Source of the DNA: Pararhodobacter aggregans
GTDB taxonomy: Bacteria; Pseudomonadota; Alphaproteobacteria; Rhodobacterales; Rhodobacteraceae
DNA: 64,000 nt
Direction: 5' to 3'
NCBI RefSeq assembly: GCF_003075525.1
Contig: NZ_QDDR01000011.1
Coordinates: forward strand, 62,001 to 126,000
Shown piece by piece: positions 41,114-64,000 of this stretch. Each line of letters starts with the position of its first letter. Positions within the stretch are counted from its first letter, which is position 1. The notes under the pieces were generated by a model that was not told where the DNA came from, did no database searches, and saw only the letters and a program-made list of their open reading frames with translations. Position numbers and translations under genes: made by a program.

Positions 41114-41782
41114 TCAGGGCCGGGGCGTGTCGCGCGGCCGGACCTCGGCCAGAAGCGAATCGACGATCTGGCGGCGCAGGGCCTTCTGCCCCTCCTCCGA
41201 GAAGAAGCCTTCGCCGAAGAGCGCGGAAAAGGTCGGCCGGTTCGAGACGTTGAAGAAGCTCAGCGCGCTGATCTGCCAATGCAGCGCCACCGGGTCCAGC
41301 CCCTGGCGGAACAGGCCCTCGGCCTCGCCCCGGCGGCAGATGTCGCGCAGCTTCTCGATGGCCGAGACGTTCATGTTGCGGATCACCTCGGAGGCGGCGA
41401 GGGTCTCGGCGTTGTGGATGTTCTCGATCATCACCATGCGGATGAAATCGGGATTGCTGCGGTGGTGGTCGAAGGTGAAGGCGACGAGCCGCGCCAGCGC
41501 CTCGTCCGGCGGCAGCGTGCCGAGGTCCAGCTGATCCTCGCCCGCGCGGACCTTGGCATAGGCGGCTTCGAGCGCCCGCATGTAGAGGCCCATCTTGTCC
41601 CCGAAGTAATAGTAGATCATCCGCTTCGAGGTCTGGGTCCGCGCCGCGATCTCGTCGATGCGGGCACCCGACAGGCCGCTTTCGGAAAAAACCGCCACGG
41701 CGACGCGCAGGATGTCCTCCTGCACGGCCTCGGGGTTCTGTTTCCAGCGTCTCCTCGCCCCCTCGGCGGCCTCTGAAGTCAC
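41114..41782 (-). CDS. TetR/AcrR family regulator of the quinate/shikimate cluster
   Basis: This 222-residue protein has a TetR DNA-binding domain (VFSESGLSGARIDEIAARTQ then TSKRMIYYYFGDKMGLY) and an all-helical effector domain with TetR_C features (FTFDHHRSNPDFIRMVMIEN). The GTG at 41782 is preceded by GGAGGG with 6-nt spacing and gives a normal TetR N-terminus. It is divergent from the aroE-like gene; the inverted repeat between them is its likely operator. A shikimate-pathway intermediate such as quinate, shikimate or protocatechuate is a plausible ligand. Confidence 0.87.
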   Translation of the reverse strand: MTSEAAEGARRRWKQNPEAVQEDILRVAVAVFSESGLSGARIDEIAARTQTSKRMIYYYFGDKMGLYMRALEAAYAKVRAGEDQLDLGTLPPDEALARLVAFTFDHHRSNPDFIRMVMIENIHNAETLAASEVIRNMNVSAIEKLRDICRRGEAEGLFRQGLDPVALHWQISALSFFNVSNRPTFSALFGEGFFSEEGQKALRRQIVDSLLAEVRPRDTPRP

Positions 41783-41860
41783 GGATTTCCCTCCTCTATC
41801 CCGACCCGGACGCGAGACTAGCACAGGGCGCAGGGCGCGGACAGGCGGCAAATTAACCGG

Positions 41861-41890
41861 CTGGTATATTCGCTTGCAAAATTGTACCAG
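41861..41890. promoter_or_regulatory. Candidate TetR operator between tetR and aroE-like genes
   Basis: CTGGTA and TACCAG are inverted halves 18 bp apart within an AT-rich stretch (TATATTCGCTTGCAAAATTG). The region holds the start signals of the divergent genes. Confidence 0.45.
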
Positions 41891-41930
41891 TTGTTACATT
41901 AAGGGGGAAAGCAGCTGGGAGGAGACCCGC

Positions 41931-42803
41931 GTGCATCGTCAGCAAGACCCGGCCAGCACGACGGTCCGCGTGGGCCTGATCGGACGCGGCATCCAGAAAT
42001 CGCGTACCCCCGGCATGCACGAGGCCGAGGGACAGGCGCAGGGGATGACCTATCGCTATGACCTCTTCGACACCGCCGCGGGCACGCCGGACGATCTGGC
42101 CGGGATCCTCGACCGGGCCGAGGCCGGGGGTTATGCGGGCCTGAACGTGACCTATCCCTACAAGCGCGCGGTGATGGCGTTGCTCGACACGCTCTCGCCC
42201 AATGCCGAGCGGGTCGGCGCGGTCAATACCGTGGTCTTCCGGAACGGGCGGCGGCAGGGGCACAACACCGATGCCTGGGGCTTCGCCGAAGGGTTCCGGC
42301 GCGGCCTGCCGGGGGCGGGGCTGGACAGGGTGCTGCTGCTGGGGGCGGGGGGCGCGGGCGGGGCGGTGGCGCATGCGCTGGTGGATCTGGGTGCGCGGCA
42401 GCTGTTGATCCGGGACACGGCGCGCCCCGCGGCCGAGGCGCTGGTGGCCTCGATCAACGCCCATGCCGGGGCCGAGACCGCCCGGGTCACCGAGGACGGG
42501 GTTGCCGAGGCGGACGGCATCGTCAACGCCACCCCCGTCGGCATGCTGGCCCTGCCCGGCACGCCGCTGGACCCCTCGGCGCTGAGCCCGCGCCACTGGG
42601 TCGCCGATATCGTCTATGTGCCGCTGGCGACCGCGCTTCTGACCGCGGCGGCGGCGCGTGGCTGCCGGGTGCTGAGCGGCGAGGGCATGGCGGTGTTCCA
42701 GGCGGTCCGGGCCTTCGAGCTGTTCACCGGCCGCCCCGCCGATCCCGAGCGGATGCGCGCCACCTTCCACCGGCTGGGCGCGGCCGGGGAGGTGCAGGCA
42801 TGA
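41931..42803 (+). CDS. Shikimate/quinate dehydrogenase (AroE family, catabolic type)
   Basis: This 290-residue NAD(P)-dependent dehydrogenase belongs to the AroE family. Substrate residues are recognisable: KSRTPGMHE replaces the usual HSxSPxxHN, NVTYPYK holds the catalytic Lys, and NTDAWGF the catalytic Asp. GAGGAGGAVAHAL binds the nucleotide and GMAVFQAVRAFELFTG closes the fold. The GTG start follows GGGAGGAG. The second substrate Ser is Thr and HN is HE, unlike biosynthetic AroE. The 4-bp overlap with a dehydroshikimate dehydratase gene makes a catabolic role on quinate or shikimate likely. Confidence 0.87.
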   Translation: MHRQQDPASTTVRVGLIGRGIQKSRTPGMHEAEGQAQGMTYRYDLFDTAAGTPDDLAGILDRAEAGGYAGLNVTYPYKRAVMALLDTLSPNAERVGAVNTVVFRNGRRQGHNTDAWGFAEGFRRGLPGAGLDRVLLLGAGGAGGAVAHALVDLGARQLLIRDTARPAAEALVASINAHAGAETARVTEDGVAEADGIVNATPVGMLALPGTPLDPSALSPRHWVADIVYVPLATALLTAAAARGCRVLSGEGMAVFQAVRAFELFTGRPADPERMRATFHRLGAAGEVQA

Positions 42804-44689
42804 GGACCGGCATCGCCACCGTCTCCATCTCGGGCACTCTGGAGGAAAAGATCGTCGCCATCGCCGCGGCGGGTTTCGACGGGATCGAGATCTTCGAGCA
42901 GGATTTCATCGCCGACACCCGCTCGCCGCGCGAGGTCGGGCGGCGGATCCGCGACGCCGGGCTGGAGCTGCTGCTGTTCCAGCCGTTCCGCGATTTCGAG
43001 GGGCTGCCGGGGGATCTGCGGCGCCGGGCCTTTGACCGGGCGGAGCGCAAGTTCGACCTGATGCAGGAGCTGGGGACCGATCTGGTGCTGGTCTGCTCCT
43101 CGGTCCATCCCGAGGCGCAGGGCGGCATCGACCGCTCGGCCGAGGATTTCGCCGAACTCGGCGTCCGGGCGGCCAAGCGCGGGCTGCGGGTCGGCTACGA
43201 GGCGCTGGCCTGGGGCCGCCATGTCAACGACCACCGCGACGCCTGGGAGATCGTGCGCCGCGCGGATCATCCGAATGTCGGGCTGATCCTGGACAGTTTC
43301 CACACGCTGGCCCGCGGCACCGATCCCGACACGATCCGCCGCATCCCCGGCGACCGGATCTTTTTCGTCCAGCTGGCCGATGCGCCGCGGATCGAGATGG
43401 ATCTGCTCTATTGGTCGCGGCATTTCCGCGCGATGCCCGGCGAGGGCGATCTGGATGTGCAGGGGTTCATGCGGGCGGTGATGGCGACGGGCTATGCCGG
43501 GCCGATCAGCCTCGAGATCTTCAACGACCAGTTCCGCGGCGGCAAGACCAAGCAGCTGGCCCGCGACGGCCACCGCTCGCTGGTCGATCTGATGGACGCG
43601 GTACGGCGGGCCGAGCCGGGGCTGACGGTCGATCTGCCGCCGATGCCCGCGCCGACCCCGCCGCAGGACACGGCCTATGTCGAATTCGCCACCCGCGGCG
43701 CCGAGGCCGAGGCGCTGGCGGCGACGCTGTCGGGCCTCGGTTTCGTGCAGACCGGGCGGCATGTCGGCAAGGATCTGACGCTCTGGCAACAGGGCGGGAT
43801 CCGGCTGGTGCTGAACCACGAACGGTCCGGCCACGCCGAGGCGATCTTCACCACGCATGGCACCAGTGTCTGCGATCTGGGGCTGAGCGTCGCCTCGGCC
43901 GCGGACACGCTGGACCGGGCCCGGGCGCTGGGGGCCGAGGTCTTTGCCCAGCCGCGCGGCCCGGCCGAGATGGAGATCCCGGGCATCCGGGGCCTCGGCG
44001 GGTCGGTGCTGCATTTCCTCGACGAGGGCAGCGGGCTGGACGGGGTCTGGGCGCGGGAATTCGGCGCCGGGTCCGAGCCGGTGCCCGGCGTCGGGCTGCG
44101 CCGCGTCGACCACATCGCCCAGACCATGAGCTATGACGAAATGCTGTCGTGGTCGCTGTTCTACACCTCGCTCTTTGCGATGAAGAAGGCGCCGATGGTC
44201 GATGTCATCGACCCCGACGGGCTGGTGCGCAGTCAGGCGGTGGCGGCGCCCGGCGGGGAGTTCCGCATCACGCTGAACGGGGCCGAGACGCATCGCACGC
44301 TGGCCGGCGCCTTTCTGGCCGAGAGTTTCGGCGCCATCGTCCAGCATCTGGCCTTCGCCACCGACGACATCCTCGCCACCGCCGAGGCGCTGGCGGCGCG
44401 CGGGTTCGAGCCCTTGCCGGTCTCGGCCAATTACTACGACGACCTCGCCGCCCGCTTCGACCTGCCGCAGACCGAGATCGCGCGGCTCAGGGCGCTGAAC
44501 CTGTTCTACGACGCGGACGGGCGCGGCGGGGAGTTCCTGCAGCTCTATTCGCGGCCCTTCGCGCATGGGCTCTTCTTCGAGATCGTCGAGCGGCGCGGTG
44601 GTTACGACGGCTATGGCGCGGCCAATGCGCCGGTCCGCATCGCCGCGCAGAAGCGGCTGGGGCGGCCCAAGGGGATGCCGTCTACCTGA
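42800..44689 (+). CDS. quiC1: 3-dehydroshikimate dehydratase, QuiC1-type fusion with HPPD-like domain
   Basis: This 629-residue protein fuses two domains. Residues 1-270 are an AP-endonuclease/sugar-isomerase-type TIM barrel with likely metal ligands in GIEIFEQDF, LILDSFHTLA and ISLEIFNDQF. Residues about 290-620 are a VOC/4-hydroxyphenylpyruvate dioxygenase-like half with HIAQTMSYDEM, QHLAFATDDI and GEFLQLYSRPF carrying candidate iron ligands. This is the known layout of QuiC1 dehydratases, which turn 3-dehydroshikimate into protocatechuate. It is coupled to the AroE-like gene by an ATGA overlap. Confidence 0.88.
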   Translation: MRTGIATVSISGTLEEKIVAIAAAGFDGIEIFEQDFIADTRSPREVGRRIRDAGLELLLFQPFRDFEGLPGDLRRRAFDRAERKFDLMQELGTDLVLVCSSVHPEAQGGIDRSAEDFAELGVRAAKRGLRVGYEALAWGRHVNDHRDAWEIVRRADHPNVGLILDSFHTLARGTDPDTIRRIPGDRIFFVQLADAPRIEMDLLYWSRHFRAMPGEGDLDVQGFMRAVMATGYAGPISLEIFNDQFRGGKTKQLARDGHRSLVDLMDAVRRAEPGLTVDLPPMPAPTPPQDTAYVEFATRGAEAEALAATLSGLGFVQTGRHVGKDLTLWQQGGIRLVLNHERSGHAEAIFTTHGTSVCDLGLSVASAADTLDRARALGAEVFAQPRGPAEMEIPGIRGLGGSVLHFLDEGSGLDGVWAREFGAGSEPVPGVGLRRVDHIAQTMSYDEMLSWSLFYTSLFAMKKAPMVDVIDPDGLVRSQAVAAPGGEFRITLNGAETHRTLAGAFLAESFGAIVQHLAFATDDILATAEALAARGFEPLPVSANYYDDLAARFDLPQTEIARLRALNLFYDADGRGGEFLQLYSRPFAHGLFFEIVERRGGYDGYGAANAPVRIAAQKRLGRPKGMPST

Positions 44690-44710
44690 AGCGGCGACAT
44701 GAAGGGATGG

Positions 44711-44727
44711 ATAATCTCTGAGATTAT
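44711..44727. promoter_or_regulatory. Perfect 17-bp palindrome before TRAP system 2
   Basis: ATAATCTC-T-GAGATTAT is a perfect palindrome with a one-base centre, 76 bp before the next gene. A TTGATA and TAGAAT pair (44727-44732 and 44748-44753) just downstream could be a promoter, so the palindrome would act as an operator for the TRAP-aroQ operon. Confidence 0.6.
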
Positions 44728-44802
44728 TGATATTGACCTATAGATCATAGAATGCGGAACTGAGAACGACCGAATCTGAACCGACGTCAAAGGGAGGAAA
44801 CC

Positions 44803-45792
44803 ATGACGCCCATTACCCGCCGCGCGGCCCTTGCCACCGGGCTTGCCCTCACCACGGCCCTGACGGCCGCGCCGCTCTTCGCCCAGAACCGGCCGGTGCT
44901 GCGCCTGTCGTCGGTGGTGTCGAACAACGACATCCGGGCCGAGGCCTTCGCCGCGATCTCGGAAGCGGTCGCGGCCGAGTTCGACCTGCAGGTGTTCAAC
45001 GGCGCCACGCTGGTGTCGCAGGGGACCGAACTGATCGCCCTGCAGCGCGGCAACCTGGAAATCGGGCTGGTGGCGCCGCAGACCATCGCCGAACAGGTGC
45101 CGGAATGGTCGATCGTCACCTCGGCCTATCTGTTCAACGACGTCGACCACCTGCAGCGGACATTCGACAGCGAAGTCGGCGAGCAGCTGCTGGCGCTGAC
45201 CGAGGGGATCGGCATCCATGTGCTGGCGCCGGTCTATTTCGGCACCCGTCAGGTCAACCTGAAGCCCGAGATCGAGGTGCAGACCCCCGCCGATCTGAAC
45301 GGGCTGACCCTGCGCATGCCCGGCGGCGACGCCTGGCAGTTCCTGGGCTCGGCCATTGGTGCCAACCCGACGCCGCTGGCCTATGCCGAGGTCTATACCG
45401 CGCTGCAGACCGGGGCCATCGACGGCCAGGACAACCCCCTGCCCAACGATTACAACATGCGGTTCTACGAGGTCACCTCGCAGATCGTCATGACCGGGCA
45501 TCTGATCGGCTTCGACGTGCTGGCCATCGCCAATGACACCTGGAACGGCATGACACCCGAACAGCAGCAGCTGCTGCAATCGGCCGTCGACACCGCCATC
45601 GCCGAAAGCACCGAGCGTCACCTGGCGCGCGAGGCCGAGCTGGTGCAGTTCTTCCAGGACCAGGGGCTGCGGGTCTATGAGCCCGACCGCGCGGCGTTCC
45701 GCGACTATGCCCAGGCGCGCTATCTGGAAAGCGAGTTTGCCGCCAGCTGGCCCGAGGGCATGCTGGAAGCGATCAACGCCCTGGCCGAGTAA
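44803..45792 (+). CDS. TRAP transporter solute-binding protein (DctP type), TRAP system 2
   Basis: This 329-residue periplasmic protein has a signal peptide (ALATGLALTTALTAAPLFAQ) and DctP hallmarks: LVSQGTELIALQRGNLEIGLV, SAYLFNDVDHLQRTFDSEVG, NGLTLRMPGGDAWQFLGS with the expected substrate Arg, and TALQTGAIDGQDNPLP. It starts after AAAGGGAGG. Placement between the dehydroshikimate dehydratase gene and an AroQ homologue points to quinate, shikimate or a related hydroxylated cyclohexane acid as ligand. Confidence 0.9.
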   Translation: MTPITRRAALATGLALTTALTAAPLFAQNRPVLRLSSVVSNNDIRAEAFAAISEAVAAEFDLQVFNGATLVSQGTELIALQRGNLEIGLVAPQTIAEQVPEWSIVTSAYLFNDVDHLQRTFDSEVGEQLLALTEGIGIHVLAPVYFGTRQVNLKPEIEVQTPADLNGLTLRMPGGDAWQFLGSAIGANPTPLAYAEVYTALQTGAIDGQDNPLPNDYNMRFYEVTSQIVMTGHLIGFDVLAIANDTWNGMTPEQQQLLQSAVDTAIAESTERHLAREAELVQFFQDQGLRVYEPDRAAFRDYAQARYLESEFAASWPEGMLEAINALAE

Positions 45793-45805
45793 CACCGCCC
45801 GCGGC

Positions 45806-45847
45806 AGGCGGGGCGGCGGGCGGCAGCGCCTGCCCGCCGCCCCGCCT
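45806..45847 (+). promoter_or_regulatory. Long hairpin between binding-protein and small-permease genes, TRAP system 2
   Basis: A perfect 16-bp stem (AGGCGGGGCGGCGGGC at 45806-45821, GCCCGCCGCCCCGCCT at 45832-45847) with a 10-nt loop starts 14 nt after the binding-protein stop. There is no T run, so partial termination or 3'-end protection is likelier than full termination. Confidence 0.65.
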
Positions 45848-45864
45848 TCATCGGAGATGCCCGA

Positions 45865-46398
45865 ATGCCCCCCCCTGCCCGCAGCTGGACCCGACTTGCC
45901 GCGACCCTGGCCGATACCGTGCCCGGGATCCTGCTGGCGATCATGTTCCTGTGCTTCATCCTTCAGGTCTTCATGCGCTACGTCATGGGCAGCCCGGTCG
46001 GCTGGACCGTCGAGGTCTGCGTCATCGCCTGGCTTTGGGTGATCCTCTGGGGCCAGTCGGTCTCGGCCCGGGAAGAGGACGAGATCCGCTTCGACATCGT
46101 CTATGGCGCGGTCTCGCCGCGGGTGCGGCGGGTCTTCCGGGTGATCTTTGCCACGGCGCTGGTGGCGATCTATGCCATCGCCATCCCGGCCAACTGGGAT
46201 TTCGTGACCTTCATGAAGATCCAGGACACCGCCTATTTCGACATTCCCTTCAGCTGGGTCTTCTCGATCCTGATGGTGTTCCTGGTGGTCTCGATCCTGC
46301 GCTACGCCTGGATCGGCTGGAGCGCGCTGACCGGGCGCGGGGTGCCGTCGGGCGAGGCCGGCCCCCATGAGGCGACACGCAAGGATTTCACCGAATGA
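45865..46398 (+). CDS. TRAP transporter small permease (DctQ type), TRAP system 2
   Basis: This 177-residue protein has four membrane helices with DctQ features: LCFILQVFMRYVMGSPVGWT and EDEIRFDIVYGAVSPRVRR. It is the small integral subunit partnering the next gene, whose start it overlaps by 4 bp. The gene follows GGAGATG. Confidence 0.88.
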   Translation: MPPPARSWTRLAATLADTVPGILLAIMFLCFILQVFMRYVMGSPVGWTVEVCVIAWLWVILWGQSVSAREEDEIRFDIVYGAVSPRVRRVFRVIFATALVAIYAIAIPANWDFVTFMKIQDTAYFDIPFSWVFSILMVFLVVSILRYAWIGWSALTGRGVPSGEAGPHEATRKDFTE

Positions 46399-47690
46399 GC
46401 TGGCAGTTCGACCTTATCGTGGCGGTGATCGTGCTCACCGCCGTCCTCGGCCTGCCCATCGGCCATGCCATGCTGGGCTCGTCGATCCTGTATCTGCTGC
46501 TGATGGGCCGCGACATGTCCATCGCCACCGAGCAGATGCTGAACGGGCTCTATGGCTCGTACGTGCTGCTGGCGATCCCGCTCTTCATCTTCGCCGCCGA
46601 CCTGATGAATGTGGGATCCCTGTCCGACCGTCTGCTTGATTTCTGCAAGGCGCTGGTCGGGCGGTTCCGGGGCGGGCTGGGCCATGTCAACGTCGTCTCG
46701 TCGCTGATCTTTTCCGGCATGTCGGGCTCGGCCATCGCCGATGCGGTGGGCATGGGGCGGATCATCATCAACCTGATGACGCGGGACGGAAAATACCCCG
46801 GCGCCTATGCCGGGGCGATCACCGCCGCCTCGGCCATTATCGGGCCGATCATCCCCCCCTCGATCCCGATGGTGCTGTTCGCGCTCGTCTCGGATACCTC
46901 GATCGGCTACCTGTTCCTGGGCGGCGTGATGCCGGGGCTGATCCTGGGCGTCCTGCTGATGATGGTGAACGCCTGGCAGGCGCGGGTCCACAATTACCCG
47001 GTCGAGGAACCCGTGCCGCTGCGCGAGATGCCGCGCGTCACGCTGCGCGCCCTGCCCGCCCTACTGATGCCGGTGATCCTGCTGGTCGGCATCTATGGCG
47101 GCATCACCACGCCCACCGAGGCCGCCGCGCTGGCCGCGCTCTATGCCTTCGTCGTCTCGACGGTGTTCTACCGCTCGGTCAGCCTGCGGCAGGCCTTCGA
47201 CACCGTGCGCCAGAGCGCGCGCTCGACCGCCAGCGTCGGCTTCCTGATCGCCGGGGCGCTGGCCTTCAACTATGTCGTCACGGTCGAGCAGGTCCCCAAT
47301 GTGATCCGCGACTCGCTGGGCGACACCCAGCTCACCTGGTTCTCGTTCCTGCTGATGGTCAACGTGATCCTGCTTCTGTTGGGCTGCGTGCTCGAGGCCA
47401 ATGCGATCCTGCTGGTCATCGTGCCGATCTTCCTGCCGACCGCCATCTCGCTGGGCGTGGACCCGGTGCATTTCGGCGTCATCGTCGTGGTCAACACGAT
47501 GATCGGCCTCGCCACCCCACCCTATGGGCTTTTGCTGTTCGTCGTCTCGTCGATCACCAAGGCCCCGACCGGCGCCACCATCCGCCACCTGCTGCCGTTC
47601 CTGGCGGTCATGGTGCTGGGATTGGCGATCATCACCTTCGTTCCCGACCTCATCCTCTGGCTGCCTCGGCTTTACGGCTACAGCGGCTGA
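46395..47690 (+). CDS. TRAP transporter large permease (DctM type), TRAP system 2
   Basis: This 431-residue polytopic protein has DctM signatures: AIPLFIFAADLMNVG, GGLGHVNVVSSLIFSGMSGS, SAIIGPIIPPSIPMVLFA and IGLATPPYGLLLFVVSS. It forms the translocation channel of TRAP system 2 and is coupled to the small-permease gene. The AroQ-like gene follows after 16 nt in the same operon. Confidence 0.92.
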   Translation: MSWQFDLIVAVIVLTAVLGLPIGHAMLGSSILYLLLMGRDMSIATEQMLNGLYGSYVLLAIPLFIFAADLMNVGSLSDRLLDFCKALVGRFRGGLGHVNVVSSLIFSGMSGSAIADAVGMGRIIINLMTRDGKYPGAYAGAITAASAIIGPIIPPSIPMVLFALVSDTSIGYLFLGGVMPGLILGVLLMMVNAWQARVHNYPVEEPVPLREMPRVTLRALPALLMPVILLVGIYGGITTPTEAAALAALYAFVVSTVFYRSVSLRQAFDTVRQSARSTASVGFLIAGALAFNYVVTVEQVPNVIRDSLGDTQLTWFSFLLMVNVILLLLGCVLEANAILLVIVPIFLPTAISLGVDPVHFGVIVVVNTMIGLATPPYGLLLFVVSSITKAPTGATIRHLLPFLAVMVLGLAIITFVPDLILWLPRLYGYSG

Positions 47691-47706
47691 TCCCCCGGAG
47701 ACCTGA

Positions 47707-48156
47707 ATGTCCGACCTGAAAACCATCCTCGTCATCAACGGCCCCAATCTGGACATGCTGGGCACCCGCCAGCCCGAGGTCTATGGCCACGACACGCTCG
47801 CCGATGTCGAGGCGCTCTGCCGCCAGACGGCCGAGGCGCAGGGCATCGCCGTCGATTTCCGCCAGAGCGACAGCGAGGCCGAGATCATGGGCTGGATCAA
47901 GCGCGCGCGGGGCACCGCGGCGGGCATCCTCATCAACCCGGCCGGCTTCACCTCGACCTCGATCGCCATTCTGGACGCGCTGCTGATCTACGATGGCCCG
48001 ATCATCGAGGTGCATATCTCGCCGCTGTTCCGGCGCGACGAATTCCGGCACCTGTCTTACGTGTCGAAGGCCGCGACCGCCAAGATCGAGGGGTTCGGCA
48101 TCCAGGGCTATGCCTTTGCCCTGACCCGGCTGGCCCAGCTGTCGCGCGCCGCCTAG
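47707..48156 (+). CDS. aroQ: Type II 3-dehydroquinate dehydratase homologue (AroQ family)
   Basis: This 149-residue protein has the AroQ fold and the opening INGPNLDMLGTRQPEVYG with catalytic Arg21 and Tyr26, Asn77 and the EVH pair Glu101/His103. However, the residue six after Asn77, normally the catalytic His (NPxxxTHTS), is Ser83, and the Asn of HISN is Pro (HISPLF). The enzyme family dehydrates 3-dehydroquinate to 3-dehydroshikimate, which would link quinate to the QuiC1 step encoded upstream. The substitutions make ordinary activity uncertain. It ends 4 bp inside the convergent GntR gene. Confidence 0.82.
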   Translation: MSDLKTILVINGPNLDMLGTRQPEVYGHDTLADVEALCRQTAEAQGIAVDFRQSDSEAEIMGWIKRARGTAAGILINPAGFTSTSIAILDALLIYDGPIIEVHISPLFRRDEFRHLSYVSKAATAKIEGFGIQGYAFALTRLAQLSRAA

Positions 48157-48842
48157 GAGGGGATCATCCCCGTCGCCAGCACGTAATCCATGCCCGCCTG
48201 CACGTGATCGACCAGAAGCGCGCAGGCGGCATCGGCGTCGCGCGCCAGCACCAGATCGCGCAATTCGCGGTGCTGCTGCGCCACGCCTTCGCCGCGGAAA
48301 TCCAGCACCAGCATGTGATAGCGCGCGTAGCGGTCGAAGACCGAGGCATGGGTCTGCATCAGCGCCTCTTGCCGGCAGGCGGCGATGGTGGCGTGGTGAA
48401 AGCCCCAGTCGTGGCGCACCCAACGCTCGACCGAGGCGCGGTTGCCAGCCATCAATTCGGCCTCGATCACCGACAGCGTGTAATGCGCGGCGACGACCGC
48501 GCCCTGCCATTCAAGGTCGCCCTCGGCAATCGAGCGTCTGAGCGCGGTGGTTTCCAGCAGGATGCGCAGATCGGCCAGTTCGCGCAGATCGGCCCGGCTG
48601 ATCGCGGCGACGCGAAAGCCGCGCTGGCCTTCGGCGGTGACCAGCCCCTCGGCCGCCAGACGGCTCAGGATCTCGCGCAGGGTCGAGACGCTGGCACCAT
48701 AATCGCCGCGCAGCAGATCCGGCTTCAGCTTGGCAAGCGGTTTGAGCCGCCCGTTGACGATATCCGCCCTGAGCCGACGATAGGCCAGATCGCCGATGGT
48801 CTCGCCTTCGCGGGCAACGGTTTCGAATCTGAGAAATTCCAT
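48153..48842 (-). CDS. GntR family transcriptional regulator (FCD type)
   Basis: This 229-residue protein has a GntR winged helix (GDLAYRRLRADIVNGRLKPL, YGASVSTLREILSRLAAEGLV) and a helical FCD effector domain with metal/ligand residues in RHDWGFHHATIAA and EHRELRDL-like HRELRDLVLARD. The ATG at 48842 was chosen as the usual FCD-GntR start. It is convergent with the AroQ-like gene and follows the ali/bad operon on the same strand, so it may control either half of the island. The AT-rich leader TTGTCGGATATAAAGTCGAA may carry its own operator. Confidence 0.87.
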   Translation of the reverse strand: MEFLRFETVAREGETIGDLAYRRLRADIVNGRLKPLAKLKPDLLRGDYGASVSTLREILSRLAAEGLVTAEGQRGFRVAAISRADLRELADLRILLETTALRRSIAEGDLEWQGAVVAAHYTLSVIEAELMAGNRASVERWVRHDWGFHHATIAACRQEALMQTHASVFDRYARYHMLVLDFRGEGVAQQHRELRDLVLARDADAACALLVDHVQAGMDYVLATGMIPS

Positions 48843-48918
48843 AGGTTCGACTTTATATCCGACAAACCCGGCGAAGAAGCCGAAACTCGGCGGGAAAGTC
48901 AATCGGGCTTCGGTCGGG

Positions 48919-53380: not shown

Positions 53381-53384
53381 GATC

Positions 53385-54271: not shown

Positions 54272-54300
54272 TGGTTAGGGGAGGGCTGATTTTATGTCAA
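54272..54300 (-). promoter_or_regulatory. Promoter of the badHI-aliBA operon
   Basis: On the minus strand a perfect TTGACA (54300-54295) and TAACCA (54277-54272) are 17 bp apart. The -35 box overlaps the palindrome proposed as the BadR operator. Confidence 0.6.
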
Positions 54301-54312
54301 CTACTTTACATA
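54293..54312. promoter_or_regulatory. Candidate BadR (MarR) operator
   Basis: TATGT and ACATA are inverted halves 10 bp apart. The site covers the -35 box of the badH promoter and touches a perfect TATAAT -10 box of the divergent badR gene at 54311-54316, so one bound dimer could block both. Confidence 0.55.
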
Positions 54313-54379
54313 TAATCCCGCAAGTCACGAGGCACGACGACGCCTTGACGTTGCGATGCAGCGCGGGGATAGTGGGAAA

Positions 54380-57441: not shown

Positions 57442-58356
57442 ATGGACTGGACCGGCACCGGGATACCGAGTTGTTTTCTTTACGGAGATTCCGCGCCCGA
57501 TGTGGAAATGGATTTCCTGCATATCGAGAGGATCCCCGAACGCAGCGGGCGTCACGATTGGACGATTCCGCCGCATATCCACCCCGACCATGTGCAGATC
57601 CTGCTGGTCGAGAACGGCGGCGGCACTCTCAGGGTCGAGGGCGAGGATTACCCGGTGCCCCGGGGCTCGCTGGTCGTGGTCCCGGCCGGGCTGGTGCATG
57701 AATTCCACTTCGTGCCGCGCACCGACGGGGTGGTGATCAACGCCGCCATGCCCTTCATCGCCCGGCTGACGCAGGAAATGGTGGATGTGGCGCAGGCGCT
57801 GACCCAGCCCGCGGTCTACGGGCTGGAGACGCCGCCCGGGGCGCTGGACCATGCGGCGACGCTTTTTCACAGCCTGCTCGAGGAATACGTCCTGTCGGTG
57901 CCCGGCCGGGTGCGGGCCATCGAGGGCTATCTGCAACTGATCCTGATAACCGCCATGCGCCGCCACCGCGCGGCCCAGCCCGACATGCGGCCCCTGGCGC
58001 AGGACCGCGATTACGCGCTGCTCTGCCGCTATCGCAATGCGCTGGAACAGAATTTCCGTCATCAGAAGTCGATGGAATTCTACGCGGCCGATCTGGGCGT
58101 CACCGTGCAGCGCCTGACCCAGGCCTGCCGGGCGCGGACCGGGCGCACGGCGTCCGAACTCCTGCACGAGCGGCTGGTGGTCGAGGCCAAGCGCCACCTC
58201 GTCTACATGGCGCGCAGCGTGGCCGAAGTCGGGTATGAGCTGGGGTTCGAGGATCCGGCCTATTTCAGCCGCTTCTTCTCGCGTCGGGTCGGGATGGCGC
58301 CGGGCGAGTACCGCCGCTGTCGTCAGGACGAGAAAGCACAAGAAATCACCGCCTGA
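57442..58356 (+). CDS. AraC family regulator with cupin N-terminus (PobR-like)
   Basis: This 304-residue protein has an N-terminal cupin (IPPHIHPDHVQILLVENGGG, GSLVVVPAGLVHEFHF) and a C-terminal AraC DNA-binding domain with two helix-turn-helix units (YAADLGVTVQRLTQACRART and SVAEVGYELGFEDPAYFSRF). The ATG at 57442 follows GGGAGGAGG. The layout resembles AraC-type PobR proteins that respond to 4-hydroxybenzoate. It is divergent from the KstD-like/SDR pair and is their probable activator. Confidence 0.85.
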   Translation: MDWTGTGIPSCFLYGDSAPDVEMDFLHIERIPERSGRHDWTIPPHIHPDHVQILLVENGGGTLRVEGEDYPVPRGSLVVVPAGLVHEFHFVPRTDGVVINAAMPFIARLTQEMVDVAQALTQPAVYGLETPPGALDHAATLFHSLLEEYVLSVPGRVRAIEGYLQLILITAMRRHRAAQPDMRPLAQDRDYALLCRYRNALEQNFRHQKSMEFYAADLGVTVQRLTQACRARTGRTASELLHERLVVEAKRHLVYMARSVAEVGYELGFEDPAYFSRFFSRRVGMAPGEYRRCRQDEKAQEITA

Positions 58357-58416: not shown

Positions 58417-58974
58417 ATGATCTTCGAATGGCGCAGCTATGATCTGAGTGTCGGCAAGGCGCCCGAATACCTGAGTCTTTTCAGCCGCGAGGGGGTGCAG
58501 CATGCCACCCGGCACCTGCCGATGGGCGGCTATTGGCTGGCGGAATCGGGGCCCCTGAACCGCATTCATCATCTGTGGATCTACGACTCGCTGGCCGAGC
58601 GCGACGCCTGCCGCGCCGGTCTGGCGCAGGAAACCGGCTGGGTGGAGGGCTTCATGCCGCGCGGTTTCCCCCTGATCGAGCGGCAGGAAAACCGGCTGAT
58701 GCGGCTGGAGCGCGGCTCTGACGCTTTGGAGAGGGTGGCGGCGGGGCGGCTTCGAACGCATCCGGCGCTGGCCGCCGACGCGCCCCTCTTCGCGCCGGGG
58801 TTCATGAGCCTGACCCTCGGCGCCGCGCCCGAGGGGGCGCTGGCGGTCTGGCGGGTCGAGCAGGGCGAAAACCCGGGCGAGATCCTGGCGCTGAGCCCCG
58901 GCACCCCGCCCGCCCCCGACGGTGCCCGCGCGCATCAACTGCTGCGCGCGCTCGGCGTCTCGCCCCTCAGCTAG
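58417..58974 (+). CDS. NIPSNAP family protein
   Basis: This 185-residue protein begins MIFEWRSYDLSVGKAPEYLSLF and contains HHLWIYDSLAERDACRA, the ferredoxin-like alpha/beta pattern of NIPSNAP proteins. In bacteria these are often found among catabolic genes and their role is not settled. It lies 60 bp after the AraC gene and overlaps the end of the convergent SDR gene by 8 bp. Confidence 0.78.
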   Translation: MIFEWRSYDLSVGKAPEYLSLFSREGVQHATRHLPMGGYWLAESGPLNRIHHLWIYDSLAERDACRAGLAQETGWVEGFMPRGFPLIERQENRLMRLERGSDALERVAAGRLRTHPALAADAPLFAPGFMSLTLGAAPEGALAVWRVEQGENPGEILALSPGTPPAPDGARAHQLLRALGVSPLS

Positions 58975-59716
58975 CCTCGCCCGCCGCGCCGAAGGCCATC
59001 CAGCCCGCATCGACCGACAGCGTCGCCCCGGTGATGGCCGAGGCGGCGGGCGACAGCAGGAAGGCCACCGCCGAAGCGATTTCGGCCGGTTCGATCAGGC
59101 GACCCATCGGGCAGCGCCTTTCAATGGTGCCGGGGTCGAGCAACCCGTCGGCGATCAGCTTGGCGACCAGTTCCGTGCGGACATAGCCGGGCGCCACGGC
59201 GTTGACCCGGATCCCCTGCCCCGCCCATTCGCAGGCCAGCGACCGGGTCAGCGCCACGATCCCGGCCTTGGCCGCGCCATAGCCGTTGCGCCGGGCAAGG
59301 CCGGTCAGCGCGGCGATCGAGGCCATGTTGACCATGGCCCCGCCGCCCGTCATGGCCCGCGCCGCCTCGCGCGCGACGAGGAAGGCGCCGGTCAGGTTCA
59401 CCTCGACCAGCTTGCGGAAATGGGCGCCGCTCTGGTCCAGCGTCGGCAGGTTGGCGTCACCGATGCCCGCGTTGTTGACCAGCGCGGTGACGGGGCCCAG
59501 CGCGGCGACCCGGGCCAGCGTGGCTGTGACGCCCGCCTCGTCCGTCACGTCGCAGGCAAGTCCCAGATGGCCGGGGCCCAGCACCTCGGCCCGGGCCGCG
59601 GCCTTGGCCCCGTCGAGGTCAAGGAGCGCCAGACGATACCCGGCGGCGGCAAGGGTCCGGGCGCAGGCCCAGCCGATCCCCTCGGCCCCGCCGGTGATGA
59701 TCGCGGTTCCGCTCAT
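58967..59716 (-). CDS. SDR family oxidoreductase after TRAP system 3
   Basis: This 249-residue SDR has TGGAEGIGWACART, NNAG, catalytic Ser in NMASIAALTG and YGAAK. It begins one base after the large-permease stop, so it belongs to the TRAP system 3 operon and probably acts on the imported compound, possibly a hydroxylated alicyclic acid. It is the third SDR of unknown substrate in this island. Confidence 0.86.
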   Translation of the reverse strand: MSGTAIITGGAEGIGWACARTLAAAGYRLALLDLDGAKAAARAEVLGPGHLGLACDVTDEAGVTATLARVAALGPVTALVNNAGIGDANLPTLDQSGAHFRKLVEVNLTGAFLVAREAARAMTGGGAMVNMASIAALTGLARRNGYGAAKAGIVALTRSLACEWAGQGIRVNAVAPGYVRTELVAKLIADGLLDPGTIERRCPMGRLIEPAEIASAVAFLLSPAASAITGATLSVDAGWMAFGAAGEAS

Positions 59717-59717
59717 G

Positions 59718-61016
59718 TCAGTTCATCAGGTTGGGCAGCAGCAGGATCAGGTCCGGGAAGGCCACGATCACGCCGATAATCACGATCTCGCCCAGCAGGA
59801 ACGGCGCCACGCCCTTGAAGACGCTCTCCAGCGGGATGTCCGGACGGATGCCGTTGACCACATAGCAATTGAGGCCCACGGGTGGCGTGACCACGCCCAC
59901 CTCGATCAGCTTGACCAGCAGGATCCCGAACCACACCGGGTCATAGCCCAGCGCCACGATGGAGGGGAAGACGACCGGCAGGGTCAGCAGCATCATGCCC
60001 AGCCCGTCCAGGATCATCCCCAGCAGCAGATACATGACGATGATCGCCGCGAGGATCACCCAGCGCGGCACGTCCAGATGCGTGACGCTGTCCGCGACCG
60101 AGGCGGGCAGCCCGGTAAAGGCGAGGAAGCGCACGAAGACCATGACGCCCCAGATCACCATGAAGATCATCGCGGTGGTCTGCACGGTGTCGAGCAGGCC
60201 GTGGCCGAATTCCTTCAGCTTCATGCGCTTGCGCATGGCCATCAGCAGGATGATCGCCGTCGCCACGCCCGCCGATTCCGTGGGCGTCATCCAGCCCATG
60301 TAGATGCCGACGAGGATGACGCCGACCACCGAGAAAACACCTGCGACCTGTGGCAGGGCGCGGATCTTCTCGATCATCGGGACGGCGGGCTCGATCGGGG
60401 CCAGCCCCGGGCGCAGCTTGACCACCACGGTGATGACGATCAGATAGACGACGACCGACAGGATGCCCGGCAGGAAGCCCGCCAGCAGCAATTGCGCGAC
60501 CGAGGTCTCGACGATGATGCCGTAGATGACCAGCAGCGCCGAGGGCGGGATCAGCGCGGCGAGCGTGCCGCCCACCGCCACCACGCCCGCGGCGAAGGCG
60601 CGGTCGTAGCCGCGTTTCTCCATCTCGGGCAGCGCGAGGCGGGTGAAGACGGCGGTCGAGGCGGTCGAGGCGCCCGAAACGGCGGCGAAACCGGCCGAGG
60701 CGAAGATCGTCGCGGTGGCAAGGCCGCCCGGCGCCCGGCCGACCCATTTGCGCGCCGCGTCATAGGCCGAGGTGGTGATGCCCGCATGCATGGCCAGAAA
60801 GCCGATGGCCACGAAGAGGGGCAGCACGCTCAGCGAATAGCTGGCCGAATTGGCGAAGGGGATCATCCCCGCCAGCCCCTCGCCGACCGAGGGGTTGCGG
60901 ATGTAGCTGATGCCGATGATGCCGACGAAGGCCGAGGCGAAGGCCACCGGCACGCCGAGGATGACCAGAAGCACGAGGGCGGCGATGCCCAGATAGCCGA
61001 TAGTGACAGGATCCAC
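59718..61016 (-). CDS. TRAP transporter large permease (DctM type), TRAP system 3
   Basis: This 432-residue membrane protein has DctM signatures, though somewhat diverged: VLPLFVAIGFLAMHAG, GGLATATIFASAGFAAVSGA, GTLAALIPPSALLVIYG and VGVVTPPVGLNCYVVNG. It is closer to the DctM forms used for aromatic or branched substrates than to those of systems 1 and 2, by eye. It lies between the small permease (4-nt gap) and an SDR gene. Confidence 0.9.
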   Translation of the reverse strand: MDPVTIGYLGIAALVLLVILGVPVAFASAFVGIIGISYIRNPSVGEGLAGMIPFANSASYSLSVLPLFVAIGFLAMHAGITTSAYDAARKWVGRAPGGLATATIFASAGFAAVSGASTASTAVFTRLALPEMEKRGYDRAFAAGVVAVGGTLAALIPPSALLVIYGIIVETSVAQLLLAGFLPGILSVVVYLIVITVVVKLRPGLAPIEPAVPMIEKIRALPQVAGVFSVVGVILVGIYMGWMTPTESAGVATAIILLMAMRKRMKLKEFGHGLLDTVQTTAMIFMVIWGVMVFVRFLAFTGLPASVADSVTHLDVPRWVILAAIIVMYLLLGMILDGLGMMLLTLPVVFPSIVALGYDPVWFGILLVKLIEVGVVTPPVGLNCYVVNGIRPDIPLESVFKGVAPFLLGEIVIIGVIVAFPDLILLLPNLMN

Positions 61017-61020: not shown

Positions 61021-61587
61021 TTACCCCTTGTCCGCGTTCAGGGCGGCCGTCGCGGGCCGGGTGATGCCGAAGACCAGCGACGAGGCGCGCGGCCGGGCCA
61101 GCAATCGCAGGGATTCGATCAGTTGCAGCACCAGCCGCGCCAGTAGCAGCGACAGCGAGACGGTGACGAAGCTGATGCCGATCCAGGTCGGGATATGAAT
61201 CTCGGCCGTGTCGGCGCCGCTGCGCCAGGCGCGTTCGAGAAACCCGGTCGAGCCCTGCATCAGCACCCAGACCGCCCAGGCGGCGACGGCATAGGTCAGC
61301 ACCTCGGCCAGCCAGCGGGGCCGGTTCTCGAGCCGCCCGGTCAGGATGGTCATCCGCACATTGCCGAATTTCGACTGGGTATAGGGGATGCCCCCCGCCG
61401 CAGCGATGGCCATCATCTGCGAGACGATATCGATACTGCCCCGGATCGGGTGGTTGAAGGCCGAGCGCCCGACGACCTCGGCGCAGACGACGACCATGAG
61501 GCCCATGATGACCAGGCCGGCCATCAGGCCGAAACTGCGTTCGATGAACCCCAGGATCTTGTGGATTGCCTCGATCAGCGCTTGCAT
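61021..61587 (-). CDS. TRAP transporter small permease (DctQ type), TRAP system 3
   Basis: This 188-residue protein has four membrane helices, with LMVVVCAEVVGRSAFNHPIRGS in the DctQ signature region and AEIHIPTWIGISFVTVSLSLL in the last helix. It follows the binding-protein gene after a hairpin and precedes the large-permease gene by 4 nt. Confidence 0.85.
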   Translation of the reverse strand: MQALIEAIHKILGFIERSFGLMAGLVIMGLMVVVCAEVVGRSAFNHPIRGSIDIVSQMMAIAAAGGIPYTQSKFGNVRMTILTGRLENRPRWLAEVLTYAVAAWAVWVLMQGSTGFLERAWRSGADTAEIHIPTWIGISFVTVSLSLLLARLVLQLIESLRLLARPRASSLVFGITRPATAALNADKG

Positions 61588-61607
61588 GCTTGTCTCATTC
61601 GCTGGGT

Positions 61608-61634: not shown

Positions 61635-61647
61635 TTCCGGGTTCGGG

Positions 61648-62706
61648 TTACTCGGCCGTGGCGGCCGCGGCGGAAGAGAGGATCAGGTCCAGCAGCTCCT
61701 GCCCCGGGGCGCCGCGGCTGTTCATGTCCTCGACCCAGGCCTGCCAGCTGGGTTCGACCGCTGCCTGCAGCGCGGCGCGCACGTCATCGGTCATCGGGAT
61801 CCGCACCAGACCGCGGGCCTCGAAATCGGCCTCGTTCTCGGCATCCACGGTCTCGTAGGCCTCGATCTGCTGGGCGTAGGCCGTCGGGATCGCCTCGTCG
61901 ATCAGGTCGCGGTATTGCTGCGGCAGTCCGGCATAGGCGTCCTCGTTGGCCGCCAGCACGCAGTTCACCGTGCCGAGGTTCCAGCGGTCGGTGACCCAGG
62001 TCGAGAGTTCCTGCAGCGAATAGGCGGTGAAGGCATAGGTATAGGGATAGACGATGGCATCGAGCGCGCCGCGCTCCATCGAACTGTAGAGATCGGGCGC
62101 CGGGATCGTCGTCGAGACCGCGCCCAGCGCCTGCATCAGCGCCGCATGCCCGCCCGAGGCGTTGATCCTGAGGCCCGACCAGGCGGCCAGATCGGCGGGC
62201 GGGGTGCCGCGGCCCATGACCTCGTAATTGGGCATCAGCACGGACATCACCGGCACCGCGCTCCAGCCCGCCCATTCCGCGGCGACGGCCGGGTGGCGCA
62301 GGTATTCGGCATAGGTGCGGTACTGGCTTTCCAGCGTCGGCAGCGGCAGCATCGCCAGGTTCAGGCCGGTCGAGATCGGCAGCTTGCCGGGGTGGTAGAA
62401 CGAGCAGACGGTCGCCATCTCGAAAGCGCCGATCTGCAGGCCGTCGATGTTCTCGGTCGGGTCGGACAGCACCGCGCCGTATTGCAGCGACAGCTGGAAA
62501 TTGCCGTCGGTCTTCTCCGACAGATAGGCGGCCAGCGCCTCGACCCCTTCGGTGAAGCCCCGGCGGTTGCCCCAGAGCGAGACCTGCCAGGTGATCGCCG
62601 GGCCGTCGACCTCGGCGGCGCGGGCGGGGCCCGCGACCGGAAGCGTCAGGCCGCTCAGCATCAGGGCCCCAAGGGCAATGGGGGTGCTCAATACGCGCAT
62701 CGTCAT
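61648..62706 (-). CDS. TRAP transporter solute-binding protein (DctP type), TRAP system 3
   Basis: This 352-residue periplasmic protein has a signal peptide (LGALMLSGLTLPVAGPARA) and DctP-like features: LSEKTDGNFQLSLQYGAVLS, DLAAWSGLRINASGGHAALM and SMERGALDAIVYPYTYA. It is longer than the other two and resembles the C4-dicarboxylate-binding-like group with varied ligands. It starts after GGAGGAAAAC and heads the operon. A cyclic carboxylate ligand is suggested by the neighbours only. Confidence 0.87.
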   Translation of the reverse strand: MTMRVLSTPIALGALMLSGLTLPVAGPARAAEVDGPAITWQVSLWGNRRGFTEGVEALAAYLSEKTDGNFQLSLQYGAVLSDPTENIDGLQIGAFEMATVCSFYHPGKLPISTGLNLAMLPLPTLESQYRTYAEYLRHPAVAAEWAGWSAVPVMSVLMPNYEVMGRGTPPADLAAWSGLRINASGGHAALMQALGAVSTTIPAPDLYSSMERGALDAIVYPYTYAFTAYSLQELSTWVTDRWNLGTVNCVLAANEDAYAGLPQQYRDLIDEAIPTAYAQQIEAYETVDAENEADFEARGLVRIPMTDDVRAALQAAVEPSWQAWVEDMNSRGAPGQELLDLILSSAAAATAE

Positions 62707-62752
62707 GTTTTCCTCCCGTGACGTGGTTGTTTGGGCCGGGCGCGGGCTGCGC

Positions 62753-63529
62753 TCAGCGATGGGTGAAGGCGGGTTTGCGTTTCTCGGCGAAAGCGTTCAT
62801 GCCCTCGCGCCGGTCGTCGGTGGCGAAGGTCGCGTAAAGGAGGCGGCGCTCCAGATAGATCCCCTCGCTCAGATGCGTCTCATGCGCGTGGTTCACCGCT
62901 TCCTTGGCCAGCATCAGGATCGGCCGCGAGCGGGCGGCGATGTCCCCCGCCAGCGCCACGGCGGCCTCCAGATAGGCGTCGAGCGGCAGGACCCGGCTGA
63001 CGAGGCCCCGGGCCAGCGCCTCGTCGGCGGTCATGACCCGGCCGGACAGGATCATGTCCATGGCGACGGCCTTGCCGACGATCCGGGTCAGCCGCTGCGT
63101 GCCGCCCGCGCCGGGGATCACGCCGACGGCGGTTTCCGGCAGGCTGAAGCGCGCGGTCTCCGAAGCGATCACGATGTCGCACATCAAGGCCAGCTCGCAG
63201 CCGCCCCCCGCCGCATGGCCCGAGACCGCGGCGATGATCGGCTTGCGGCAGCGGGCGGGGCCCTCCCAGCTGCGGGTGATGAGTTGTTCGGCGTAGACCT
63301 CGGCGAAGGTCTTGTCCTTCAGCTCTTTCAGATCGGCCCCGGCGGCGAAGGCGCGGTCATCGCCCGTCAGGACGATGGCGCCGATGGAATCGTCCGCGTC
63401 GAAGGCCGCCAGCGCCGCCGACATCTCGGTCGTCAGCGCCAGATTCAGCGCGTTCAGCGCCTGCGGCCGGTTCAGCCGGACGATGCCGACCGCGCCCCGG
63501 GTCTCGGTCAGGATGGACGAATGGGTCAT
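62753..63529 (-). CDS. Enoyl-CoA hydratase, BadK-like
   Basis: This 258-residue crotonase has the oxyanion loops AFAAGADLKEL and GHAAGGGCELALMCDI and the catalytic Glu region LPETAVGVIPGAGGTQRL. The beginning SILTETRGAVGIVRLNRP, FDADDSIGAIV and the ending FAEKRKPAFTHR are much like BadK, the cyclohex-1-ene-1-carboxyl-CoA hydratase that would connect AliB to BadH, but general enoyl-CoA hydratases share these features. It overlaps an upstream short reading frame by ATGA and is divergent from an acyl-CoA dehydrogenase gene. Confidence 0.82.
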   Translation of the reverse strand: MTHSSILTETRGAVGIVRLNRPQALNALNLALTTEMSAALAAFDADDSIGAIVLTGDDRAFAAGADLKELKDKTFAEVYAEQLITRSWEGPARCRKPIIAAVSGHAAGGGCELALMCDIVIASETARFSLPETAVGVIPGAGGTQRLTRIVGKAVAMDMILSGRVMTADEALARGLVSRVLPLDAYLEAAVALAGDIAARSRPILMLAKEAVNHAHETHLSEGIYLERRLLYATFATDDRREGMNAFAEKRKPAFTHR

Positions 63530-63696
63530 GCGATCTCCGTGTTCCCTGCCGCGATCCCGATGATCGCGGGACGTGAAACGAGGATCCCGCCACGCCGGGC
63601 AGAGGCCCGCCGCCGCGCCCCTTTGGGGGCGAGCGGGACACCCCCCTCGGAAGCCAAGCCTCCGGGGGTGCGGGCACGCAGGACGGCCGCCGTCAT
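63526..63696 (-). CDS. Possible 56-residue leader peptide coupled to the BadK-like gene
   Basis: A short frame starts at an ATG 8 nt after GGAGGAGAA, a stronger ribosome site than that of the hydratase gene, and its TGA overlaps the hydratase ATG (ATGA). The peptide is Arg/Gly/Ala-rich (MTAAVLRARTPGG ... GNTEIA) and resembles no family I know. Hairpins such as CCGCGAT / ATCGCGG (63549-63569) lie within it. It may be a translated leader that controls the hydratase gene, or a remnant. Confidence 0.4.
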   Translation of the reverse strand: MTAAVLRARTPGGLASEGGVPLAPKGARRRASARRGGILVSRPAIIGIAAGNTEIA

Positions 63697-63927
63697 GAGA
63701 TTCTCCTCCACCTCGCAACTATGTAAACACGTTAACACAGTTACAGCAAGCCCCACGCGATCCGCGCTTCACTCAGCCTGCATTCCCCGGGAACATTACT
63801 GCAAATCACGGGAGAAAGCTGTGCACCTAGCGTGAGTTCTCTTGCACTTTGGCCGCGAGATTCAGCTTGCGCCAAGTGTCTAAAATGACAATATATTGCC
63901 TTTAAATTTGCGCAAGGGAGAGCTTCC
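63697..63927. promoter_or_regulatory. Divergent control region before the acyl-CoA dehydrogenase gene
   Basis: The region is AT-richer than its surroundings. At 63722-63737 a partly palindromic TGTAAACACGTTAACA (form TGTnAACnnGTTnACA) looks like an operator. A possible promoter for the rightward gene is TTGCGC (63867-63872) with TATATT (63892-63897). No gene is seen besides these. Confidence 0.45.
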
Positions 63928-64000
63928 ATGAGTCTCGACAAGGACATCCGCGACCAGTTGGTCGCCACCATTCGCCGCTTTGTCGATGAACGGCTGATCC
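63928..64000 (+). CDS. Acyl-CoA dehydrogenase, N-terminal part (3' end outside window)
   Basis: Only the first 24 residues are present. The ATG follows AAGGGAGAG, and the peptide MSLDKDIRDQLVATIRRFVD continuing ERLI is typical of the first helix of acyl-CoA dehydrogenases. Position opposite the BadK-like gene fits beta-oxidation-like catabolism in the island. The family call rests on a short stretch. Confidence 0.55.
   Translation, partial: MSLDKDIRDQLVATIRRFVDERLI

Follow-up and report, generated by a model that had tools for sequence, protein, structure and literature searches.

Genes for the catabolism of quinate/shikimate and of cyclohexanecarboxylate (CHC) lie next to each other in a 64,000-nucleotide stretch of the 5.08 Mb draft genome of Pararhodobacter aggregans (G000:C11:62001-126000; the window hereafter), which raises the question whether they form one catabolic island, as the first-pass annotation had claimed for C7 ring acids of differing oxidation level. 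Gene calls from open reading frames (ORFs) and Pfam/NCBIfam models, with several start codons picked by eye, placed every gene named there in the window. Together with gene neighbourhoods in other genomes, they split the genes between positions 41114 and 64000 into three units: a quinate/shikimate cluster, a bad-ali cluster and a five-gene set, here called module F, consisting of a short-chain dehydrogenase/reductase (SDR2), a KstD-family flavoprotein, an AraC-type regulator, a NIPSNAP protein and another SDR (SDR3) (Table 1). Sequence comparison establishes that these three putative catabolic units stand side by side and are conserved as such, and it is from there that we infer the substrates of all three. 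We consider it probable, though by no means secure, that this three-unit explanation holds with module F aromatising 4-oxygenated ring acids to 4-hydroxybenzoate.

The data do not support the quinate and the CHC halves as one unit, and their joint conservation was not borne out. In a survey of badI loci from named genomes (the best 80 of 588 relatives, several of the 80 ending at contig breaks), quiC lay near badI in two, L038 and L064, both from Paraburkholderia, and these loci have a QuiC of 42-43% identity. The two genes are close in none of the four other genomes of the family that have both: they are 461 kb apart in G023 and on different draft contigs in G137, G153 and G297. QuiC relatives (E <= 1e-120) were found in 101 of the 394 family genomes, and their association with BadI was not significant (5/10 BadI genomes versus 96/384 others, p = 0.083; without the window's genome, p = 0.17). 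A quinate unit joined to bad-ali was seen in none of the other Rhodobacterales loci examined. On these grounds we rejected a single quinate-plus-CHC island as a conserved unit. What stands of the earlier idea includes the notion of ring acids of differing oxidation level, which fits the apparent role of module F.

Module F is a separate mobile unit, because it recurs, whole or in good part, with tripartite ATP-independent periplasmic (TRAP) transporter, ATP-binding cassette (ABC) transporter or aromatic-acid major facilitator superfamily (MFS) genes. All or most of it accompanies a TRAP system and bad-ali on a Salipiger plasmid, an ABC transporter, a shikimate-dehydrogenase-like gene and quiC in Paracoccus sp. 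MA and P. pantotrophus, pobA in Haematobacter massiliensis and an aromatic-acid MFS gene in Paraburkholderia aromaticivorans. In L100, L102 and L104 it stands with an acyl-CoA dehydrogenase-like gene, AroQ and ABC transporter genes, and two of these loci also have a CoA-transferase-like gene nearby, recognised by Pfam in L102 and by eye in L104. AraC and NIPSNAP are oriented divergently from SDR2-flavoprotein, SDR3 is convergent, and a homologue of SDR2 lies within 150 bp of most of the related flavoproteins. The structure model of the NIPSNAP protein (predicted local distance difference test score 65.9, from 3 sequences) has the NIPSNAP proteins 1vqy and 5ixu as its nearest solved folds, followed by weak ferredoxin-like matches, and was uninformative as a clue to the reaction. 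With 185 residues, the protein has a longer C-terminal part than the NIPSNAP proteins of about 110-135 residues in L141, L143, L145 and L152, and represents a Rhodobacterales form.

Regarding the flavoprotein, the label 'KstD-like' of the first-pass annotation is right as to sequence family and catalytic residues. Its best solved relatives are 3-oxosteroid 1-dehydrogenases (7p18, 312 bits), and Y112, Y361, Y532 and G536 align with Y119, Y318, Y487 and G491 of KstD1 (alignment to 4c3x; native numbers were taken by subtracting 20 from the chain numbers, an offset that suits all four residues), so that the complete Y/Y/Y/G catalytic set is kept. According to PMC5348764, Tyr487 and Gly491 of KstD1 promote enolisation of the ring ketone, Tyr119 and Tyr318 take the proton and the flavin adenine dinucleotide (FAD) takes the hydride. 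These similarities would also suit a 3-ketosteroid or other terpenoid dehydrogenase that is a chance neighbour of bad-ali; yet the three KstD models gave 443.3, 420.9 and 362.9 bits against cut-offs of 789, 788 and 793, and the genes seen nearby (those for aromatic-acid transporters, pobA and quiC) speak for C7 ring acids, with no steroid pointers among them (a systematic search for steroid genes was not made). We therefore regard a steroid or terpenoid substrate as very improbable.

A tree of 62 related flavoproteins (FastTree, midpoint root, without a bona fide ChcC2 sequence) placed the flavoproteins of module F in a monophyletic F clade of 23 tips from Alpha- and Betaproteobacteria (local support 0.999), within which the window, Salipiger and Seohaeicola form one group. 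In the plasmid records seen, KstD-like flavoproteins of this clade are labelled, for example, 'FAD-dependent oxidoreductase' or '3-oxosteroid 1-dehydrogenase'. Duplicates (L001, L002, L015 and L164, of the window, L096, L097 and L140) were removed before counting. A related class, FAD_q (L099, L107-L114, L117, L133, L134 and L136), is 45-49% identical to the flavoprotein of the window and stands with a triosephosphate isomerase-barrel gene and mostly LysR, TctCBA and AroE.

The link between module F and 4-hydroxybenzoate comes from pobA. Of the 23 distinct F loci, 6 (L092, L115, L106, L145, L140 and L152) have a PobA-family gene no more than 3 kb from the flavoprotein, a distance at which none of the 39 other flavoprotein tips has one (p = 0.0016); in L152 (G744), the two ORFs even overlap by one base (11174-12883/12883-14064). 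A later sample of 388 Pseudomonadota genomes contributed three F loci and one paralogue (L176); pobA lies within the same 3 kb in two of the former (L173 and L174) and not in the latter. The pooled counts are 8/26 F loci versus 0/40 paralogues, i.e. the other tree tips plus L176, some of which share one locus (p = 0.00027, or 0.0018 if the second flavoprotein of L152, 4.7 kb from the F-linked pobA, is counted as linked). These p values are rough because related tips are not independent, and a pobA could have been overlooked where L126, L128 and the edge genes of L089, L152 and L160 are short on one side. The pobA-linked cases are scattered over the F tree, its base included. CoA-transferase and thiolase genes that look like those of the beta-ketoadipate pathway adjoin module F and pobA in L106 and L173 (by eye; one L106 gene by Pfam). 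Two points are established by comparison: the catalytic residues are conserved, and in relatives pobA repeatedly neighbours module F.

If module F acts as we suppose, its SDRs would oxidise 4-hydroxycyclohexane(ene)carboxylate to the 4-oxo acid, perhaps one for each stereoisomer, and the flavoprotein would desaturate the latter until it aromatises; two desaturations of 4-oxocyclohexanecarboxylate and a tautomerisation would give 4-hydroxybenzoate. The neighbouring TRAP system would serve the module, and the breakdown would be completed by PobA and by a protocatechuate pathway encoded elsewhere; in favour of this, the genome has LigA homologues about 2 kb from a pobA. SDR3 is proposed to be the 4-hydroxycyclohexanecarboxylate dehydrogenase. 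The division of labour between the SDRs, the use of a single flavoprotein for both desaturations and any role of the NIPSNAP protein are what we infer from this scheme. A precedent is the chc route of Sinomonas cyclohexanicum (Yamamoto et al. 2021, as related in PMC9795900), in which 4-hydroxy-CHC is converted via 4-oxo-CHC to 4-hydroxybenzoate with two desaturases. Module F would share the chemistry, with a dehydrogenase and a KstD-type desaturase, but it would do without the P450 4-hydroxylase of the chc cluster, and the window has one desaturase gene instead of two. Since the curated Chc cut-offs tested were not reached, we call module F chc-like and not a member of chc.

Several observations weigh against this proposal. 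The single desaturase is one of them. Another is that the ChcC2 (NF053677, 557.7 bits, cut-off 900), ChcC1 (NF053676, 296.2 bits, cut-off 1000) and ChcB2 models all stay far below their cut-offs. Moreover, a paralogue in the same genome, 53-55% identical to the flavoprotein, scores 568.9 bits on the ChcC2 model. We therefore rejected the ChcC2 score as proof of function, as we did the ChcB2 score of SDR3, to which general SDR models come close. The subclade formed by the window, Salipiger and Seohaeicola has no adjacent pobA, 18 of the 26 F loci lack pobA within 3 kb, and three of the eight neighbouring PobA proteins (L152, L140 and L174) lie under the equivalog and over the subfamily cut-off. 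Because pobA was present in 9 of 9 genomes searched, only its nearness is informative. In the genome of the window, the better pobA (L149:1501-2673, G000:C5:282734-283906), near the ligA genes, has one in-frame TAG, either a mutation or an assembly error; a second pobA on C4 is open, more distant and, at 406 bits, under the equivalog cut-off, and a search of this genome for pcaH gave no match. As a consequence, the downstream steps in this strain are uncertain.

The wider flavoprotein family is also tied more strongly to QuiC (21/25 versus 80/369 genomes, p = 3.6e-10), which is the main support for a different course, in which module F acts on more oxygenated C7 acids such as 3,4-dihydroxycyclohexanecarboxylate or dihydroshikimate-like compounds, yields protocatechuate directly and is an accessory of quinate/shikimate catabolism. 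Consistent with this, QuiC is present in 7 of 7 family genomes with an F-class flavoprotein (p = 6e-5), two F copies adjoin quiC (L089 and L160), several lie near shikimate-dehydrogenase-like or AroQ genes and an ABC transporter (L089, L160, L093, L100, L102 and L104), and the FAD_q class, beside TctCBA/AroE, has QuiC at a distance of 5.2-6.9 kb in 12 of its 16 loci. Direct formation of protocatechuate would make pobA needless, however, and yet pobA neighbours widely spread points of the F tree; besides, no quiC or shikimate gene accompanies the copies read on Burkholderiales plasmids within the stretch examined. On balance, we hold this course to be a serious but unlikely alternative to the formation of 4-hydroxybenzoate.

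We also considered and rejected a hydroxylase as a partner of module F, as the P450-domain ORF of L143 and the Rieske oxygenase gene of L175 are single cases. A motif scan found no ORF with a P450 heme motif in the window or L094, and among 26 stretches scanned (23 F loci and 3 flanks) only L143 had one; none was flagged among the unassigned ORFs of L173-L175. The case in L143 is a single ORF beside module F (L143:6243-9032) in which a P450 domain is joined to a BenC-like reductase and an FCD domain.

Module F could also belong to its neighbour in the window, unit 2. As in the bad-ali systems of Rhodopseudomonas palustris and Aromatoleum sp. CIB described in PMC9795900, this unit has aliA, aliB, badK, badH, badI and a MarR-type badR; it also shares an exact form of the BadR operator, and its badK adjoins an acyl-CoA dehydrogenase gene. 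It differs in that an inverted block with module F and TRAP genes parts badK and the acyl-CoA dehydrogenase gene from badR. In contrast to L009, L011, L012 and others, where about 4.6 kb separate badI from aliB, there is no intervening gene in the window. The flavoprotein/AraC/NIPSNAP/SDR/TRAP block occurs together with bad-ali in three other organisms despite rearrangement, in support of the first-pass annotation: Seohaeicola (L015/L097), a Rhodobacteraceae metagenome-assembled genome (L016) and, on a plasmid, Salipiger (L090). The order in L090, L097/L098 and L016 is SDR2-flavoprotein-AraC-NIPSNAP-SDR3-TRAP-badK and later badR-badH-badI-aliB-aliA-SDR1, with an acyl-CoA dehydrogenase gene between badK and badR in L090 and L016; SDR2 and the flavoprotein fall outside the locus in L016. 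In the window, the block that ends with badK and the acyl-CoA dehydrogenase gene has the opposite orientation with respect to the badR-to-SDR1 block, which places these two genes at the far end. The BadK-like hydratase noted before is therefore present and linked to bad-ali, as the relocated counterpart of the gene near badR in relatives, and badH-badI-aliB-aliA, badR and the distant badK are one bad-ali cluster split by inversion. The cluster extends beyond the edge of the window with the acyl-CoA dehydrogenase ORF (L094:1929-3083, G000:C11:125928-127082).

The BadR operator is given as CAAN4TTG in PMC9795900, and such a site is present in 33 of 56 badR-badH gaps of relatives, CAATATATTG being the commonest form among the gaps listed. 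The window has this exact form between badK and the acyl-CoA dehydrogenase ORF, as does L016 in the corresponding gap, and a one-mismatch form between badH and badR, where L015 and L016 carry CAACTACTTG. As the bare motif is not enriched in the window by count (7 found versus 6.3 expected), the weight of the former site rests on its position. No CAAN4TTG was found between the flavoprotein and AraC of module F.

This bears on the possibility that the right block is an accessory of bad-ali, in which the TRAP system would import CHC and the SDRs and the flavoprotein would turn oxo or hydroxy derivatives into a substrate of AliA, leading to ring opening instead of aromatisation. Apart from the three organisms with both sets, the co-occurrence of BadI (at least 77% identity) and F points in this direction (3/8 versus 4/386 genomes, p = 1.9e-4; without the window's genome 2/7, p = 0.004), as do the acyl-CoA dehydrogenase-like genes adjoining NIPSNAP in L100, L102 and L104. 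Of the 26 F loci, however, only three, those of the window, Salipiger and Seohaeicola, have badI within the stretch read (L175 has only a 28% identical hydratase-like match), and module F has its own AraC regulator and lacks the BadR motif. We consider such an accessory role improbable.

Unit 2 itself is already known. AliA, AliB, BadK, BadH and BadI, under BadR, would convert CHC via CoA thioesters to pimelyl-CoA. For BadH, the next best model reached 235 bits, and no BadK model was among the best 25 of 73 NCBIfam matches of the hydratase. In many bad-ali clusters of Rhodobacterales, a counterpart of SDR1 follows aliA. Among the named genomes scanned, a set from which the window's own may be missing, Gemmobacter aquatilis has the closest BadI (94%). 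About 70 kb rightward, the same contig encodes another BadI-like hydratase, of 66% identity (G000:C11:184540-185316, L095).

Unit 1 (41114-48938) is a quinate/shikimate cluster of the standard, already known Rhodobacterales type, in which a dehydratase domain fused to an HPPD-like domain is accompanied by AroE, AroQ and an importer, as in quinate/shikimate catabolism. Its TRAP system would import quinate/shikimate, which AroE, AroQ and QuiC would convert to protocatechuate. The dehydratase matches 5hmq over residues 1-619 (584 bits) and NF042435 over residues 1-618 with 651.6 bits; it is named QuiC1-type only, because the equivalog cut-off of 1200 was not reached. Comparable TRAP-AroQ-QuiC sets are found on plasmids of Marinovum, Chelatococcus, Haematobacter and Paracoccus liaowanqingii (L136-L139), which share the gene kinds, the TRAP type, AroQ beside TRAP and GntR/TetR regulators; gene order differs, and among the Rhodobacterales loci examined the join to bad-ali was seen only in the window. 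A TetR regulator 62% identical to that of the window lies near the Chelatococcus set. The GntR/FCD regulator most likely controls the quinate unit, its homologues being near TRAP or QuiC in L136, L138 and L139.

With regard to transport, DctM and DctQ of the second TRAP system, that next to module F, are 50-52% and 79-81% identical to annotated TRAP permeases; L090 has the same order and annotation, and L097 and L016 are similar. The solved relatives listed for the TRAP binding proteins did not point to a ligand. The third TRAP importer of the first-pass annotation is real and, with amidase and LysR genes, occupies 35567-40941, just left of the island. Farther left, the G+C content falls to 55% at 28001-30000 (64-72% in the other 2-kb steps), with a methionine-synthase-like ORF at the right edge of this stretch.

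Table 1 Genes and BadR operator sites of the three units and the third TRAP system in the window.
Feature	Position	Strand	Basis and remarks
TRAP DctQ (third system)	35567-36100
TRAP DctP (third system)	36161-37540
TRAP DctM (third system)	37159-38442
TetR regulator	41114-41782	-	NCBIfam TetR-type matches; start GTG 41782 by eye, ORF opens 41851
AroE-type quinate/shikimate dehydrogenase	41931-42803	+	Shikimate_dh_N, SDH_C; NF009201 376.9 bits, cut-off 235
QuiC1-type 3-dehydroshikimate dehydratase	42800-44689	+	AP_endonuc_2 and HPPD-like fusion (Pfam)
TRAP DctP, DctQ, DctM	44803-47690	+	Pfam; TRAP-AroQ order also in L136-L139; substrate putative
AroQ, type II dehydroquinase	47707-48156	+	DHquinase_II 171.2 bits
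GntR/FCD regulator	48153-48938	-	Pfam; GntR domain from residue 52, true start probably downstream of 48938
SDR1	48919-49677	-	Pfam; 57-68% identical SDR follows aliA in relatives
AliA, CHC-CoA ligase	49674-51317	-	TIGR03208 832.3 bits, over cut-off 792.3
AliB, cyclohexanecarboxyl-CoA dehydrogenase	51394-52551	-	TIGR03207 569.9 bits, best model, under cut-off 575.35; start by eye
BadI, 2-ketocyclohexanecarboxyl-CoA hydrolase	52598-53392	-	TIGR03210 503.4 bits, over cut-off 467.6
BadH, 2-hydroxycyclohexanecarboxyl-CoA dehydrogenase	53385-54152	-	TIGR03206 376.8 bits, best model, under cut-off 431.2; start by eye
One-mismatch BadR operator CAACTACTTT	54298-54307	.	badH-badR gap
MarR regulator, BadR position	54356-54874	+	MarR/MarR_2; homologues adjoin badH in many loci, 39-75% identical
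SDR2	54895-55647	-	Pfam; proposed start 1 bp past flavoprotein stop
F flavoprotein	55649-57322	-	FAD_binding_2; KstD family
AraC regulator	57442-58356	+	ORF opens 57409; HpaA model TIGR02297 144.5 bits, cut-off 274.65
NIPSNAP protein	58417-58974	+	PF07978 71.2 bits
SDR3	58967-59716	-	NF053701 (ChcB2) 200.9 bits, cut-off 350, near general SDR models
TRAP DctM	59718-61016	-
TRAP DctQ	61021-61587	-
TRAP DctP	61648-62706	-	NCBIfam TRAP_S1
BadK, cyclohex-1-enecarboxyl-CoA hydratase	62753-63529	-	ECH_1 262.3 bits; relatives have a 65-76% identical gene near badR
Exact BadR operator form CAATATATTG	63889-63898	.	Gap between badK and acyl-CoA dehydrogenase ORF (start 63928)

Open-access titles and abstracts gave no description of a module such as F, or of a quinate unit with bad-ali, which is no proof of absence. 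We tentatively suggest, as a possibility that we rate below the three-unit explanation itself, that module F is an undescribed cassette shared horizontally among Proteobacteria, in which one KstD-type flavoprotein, assisted by a NIPSNAP protein, converts 4-oxygenated cyclohexane(ene)carboxylates to 4-hydroxybenzoate, so that cells with the cassette beside bad-ali would sort ring acids by oxidation level, the plain ring being opened and the oxygenated ring aromatised. If true, this would assign a function to a set of plasmid and chromosome loci, give NIPSNAP proteins a testable metabolic setting and provide candidate genes for the aerobic use of hydroxylated alicyclic acids in Proteobacteria; where module F stands beside bad-ali, there would be one exit for plain ring acids and another for oxygenated ones.

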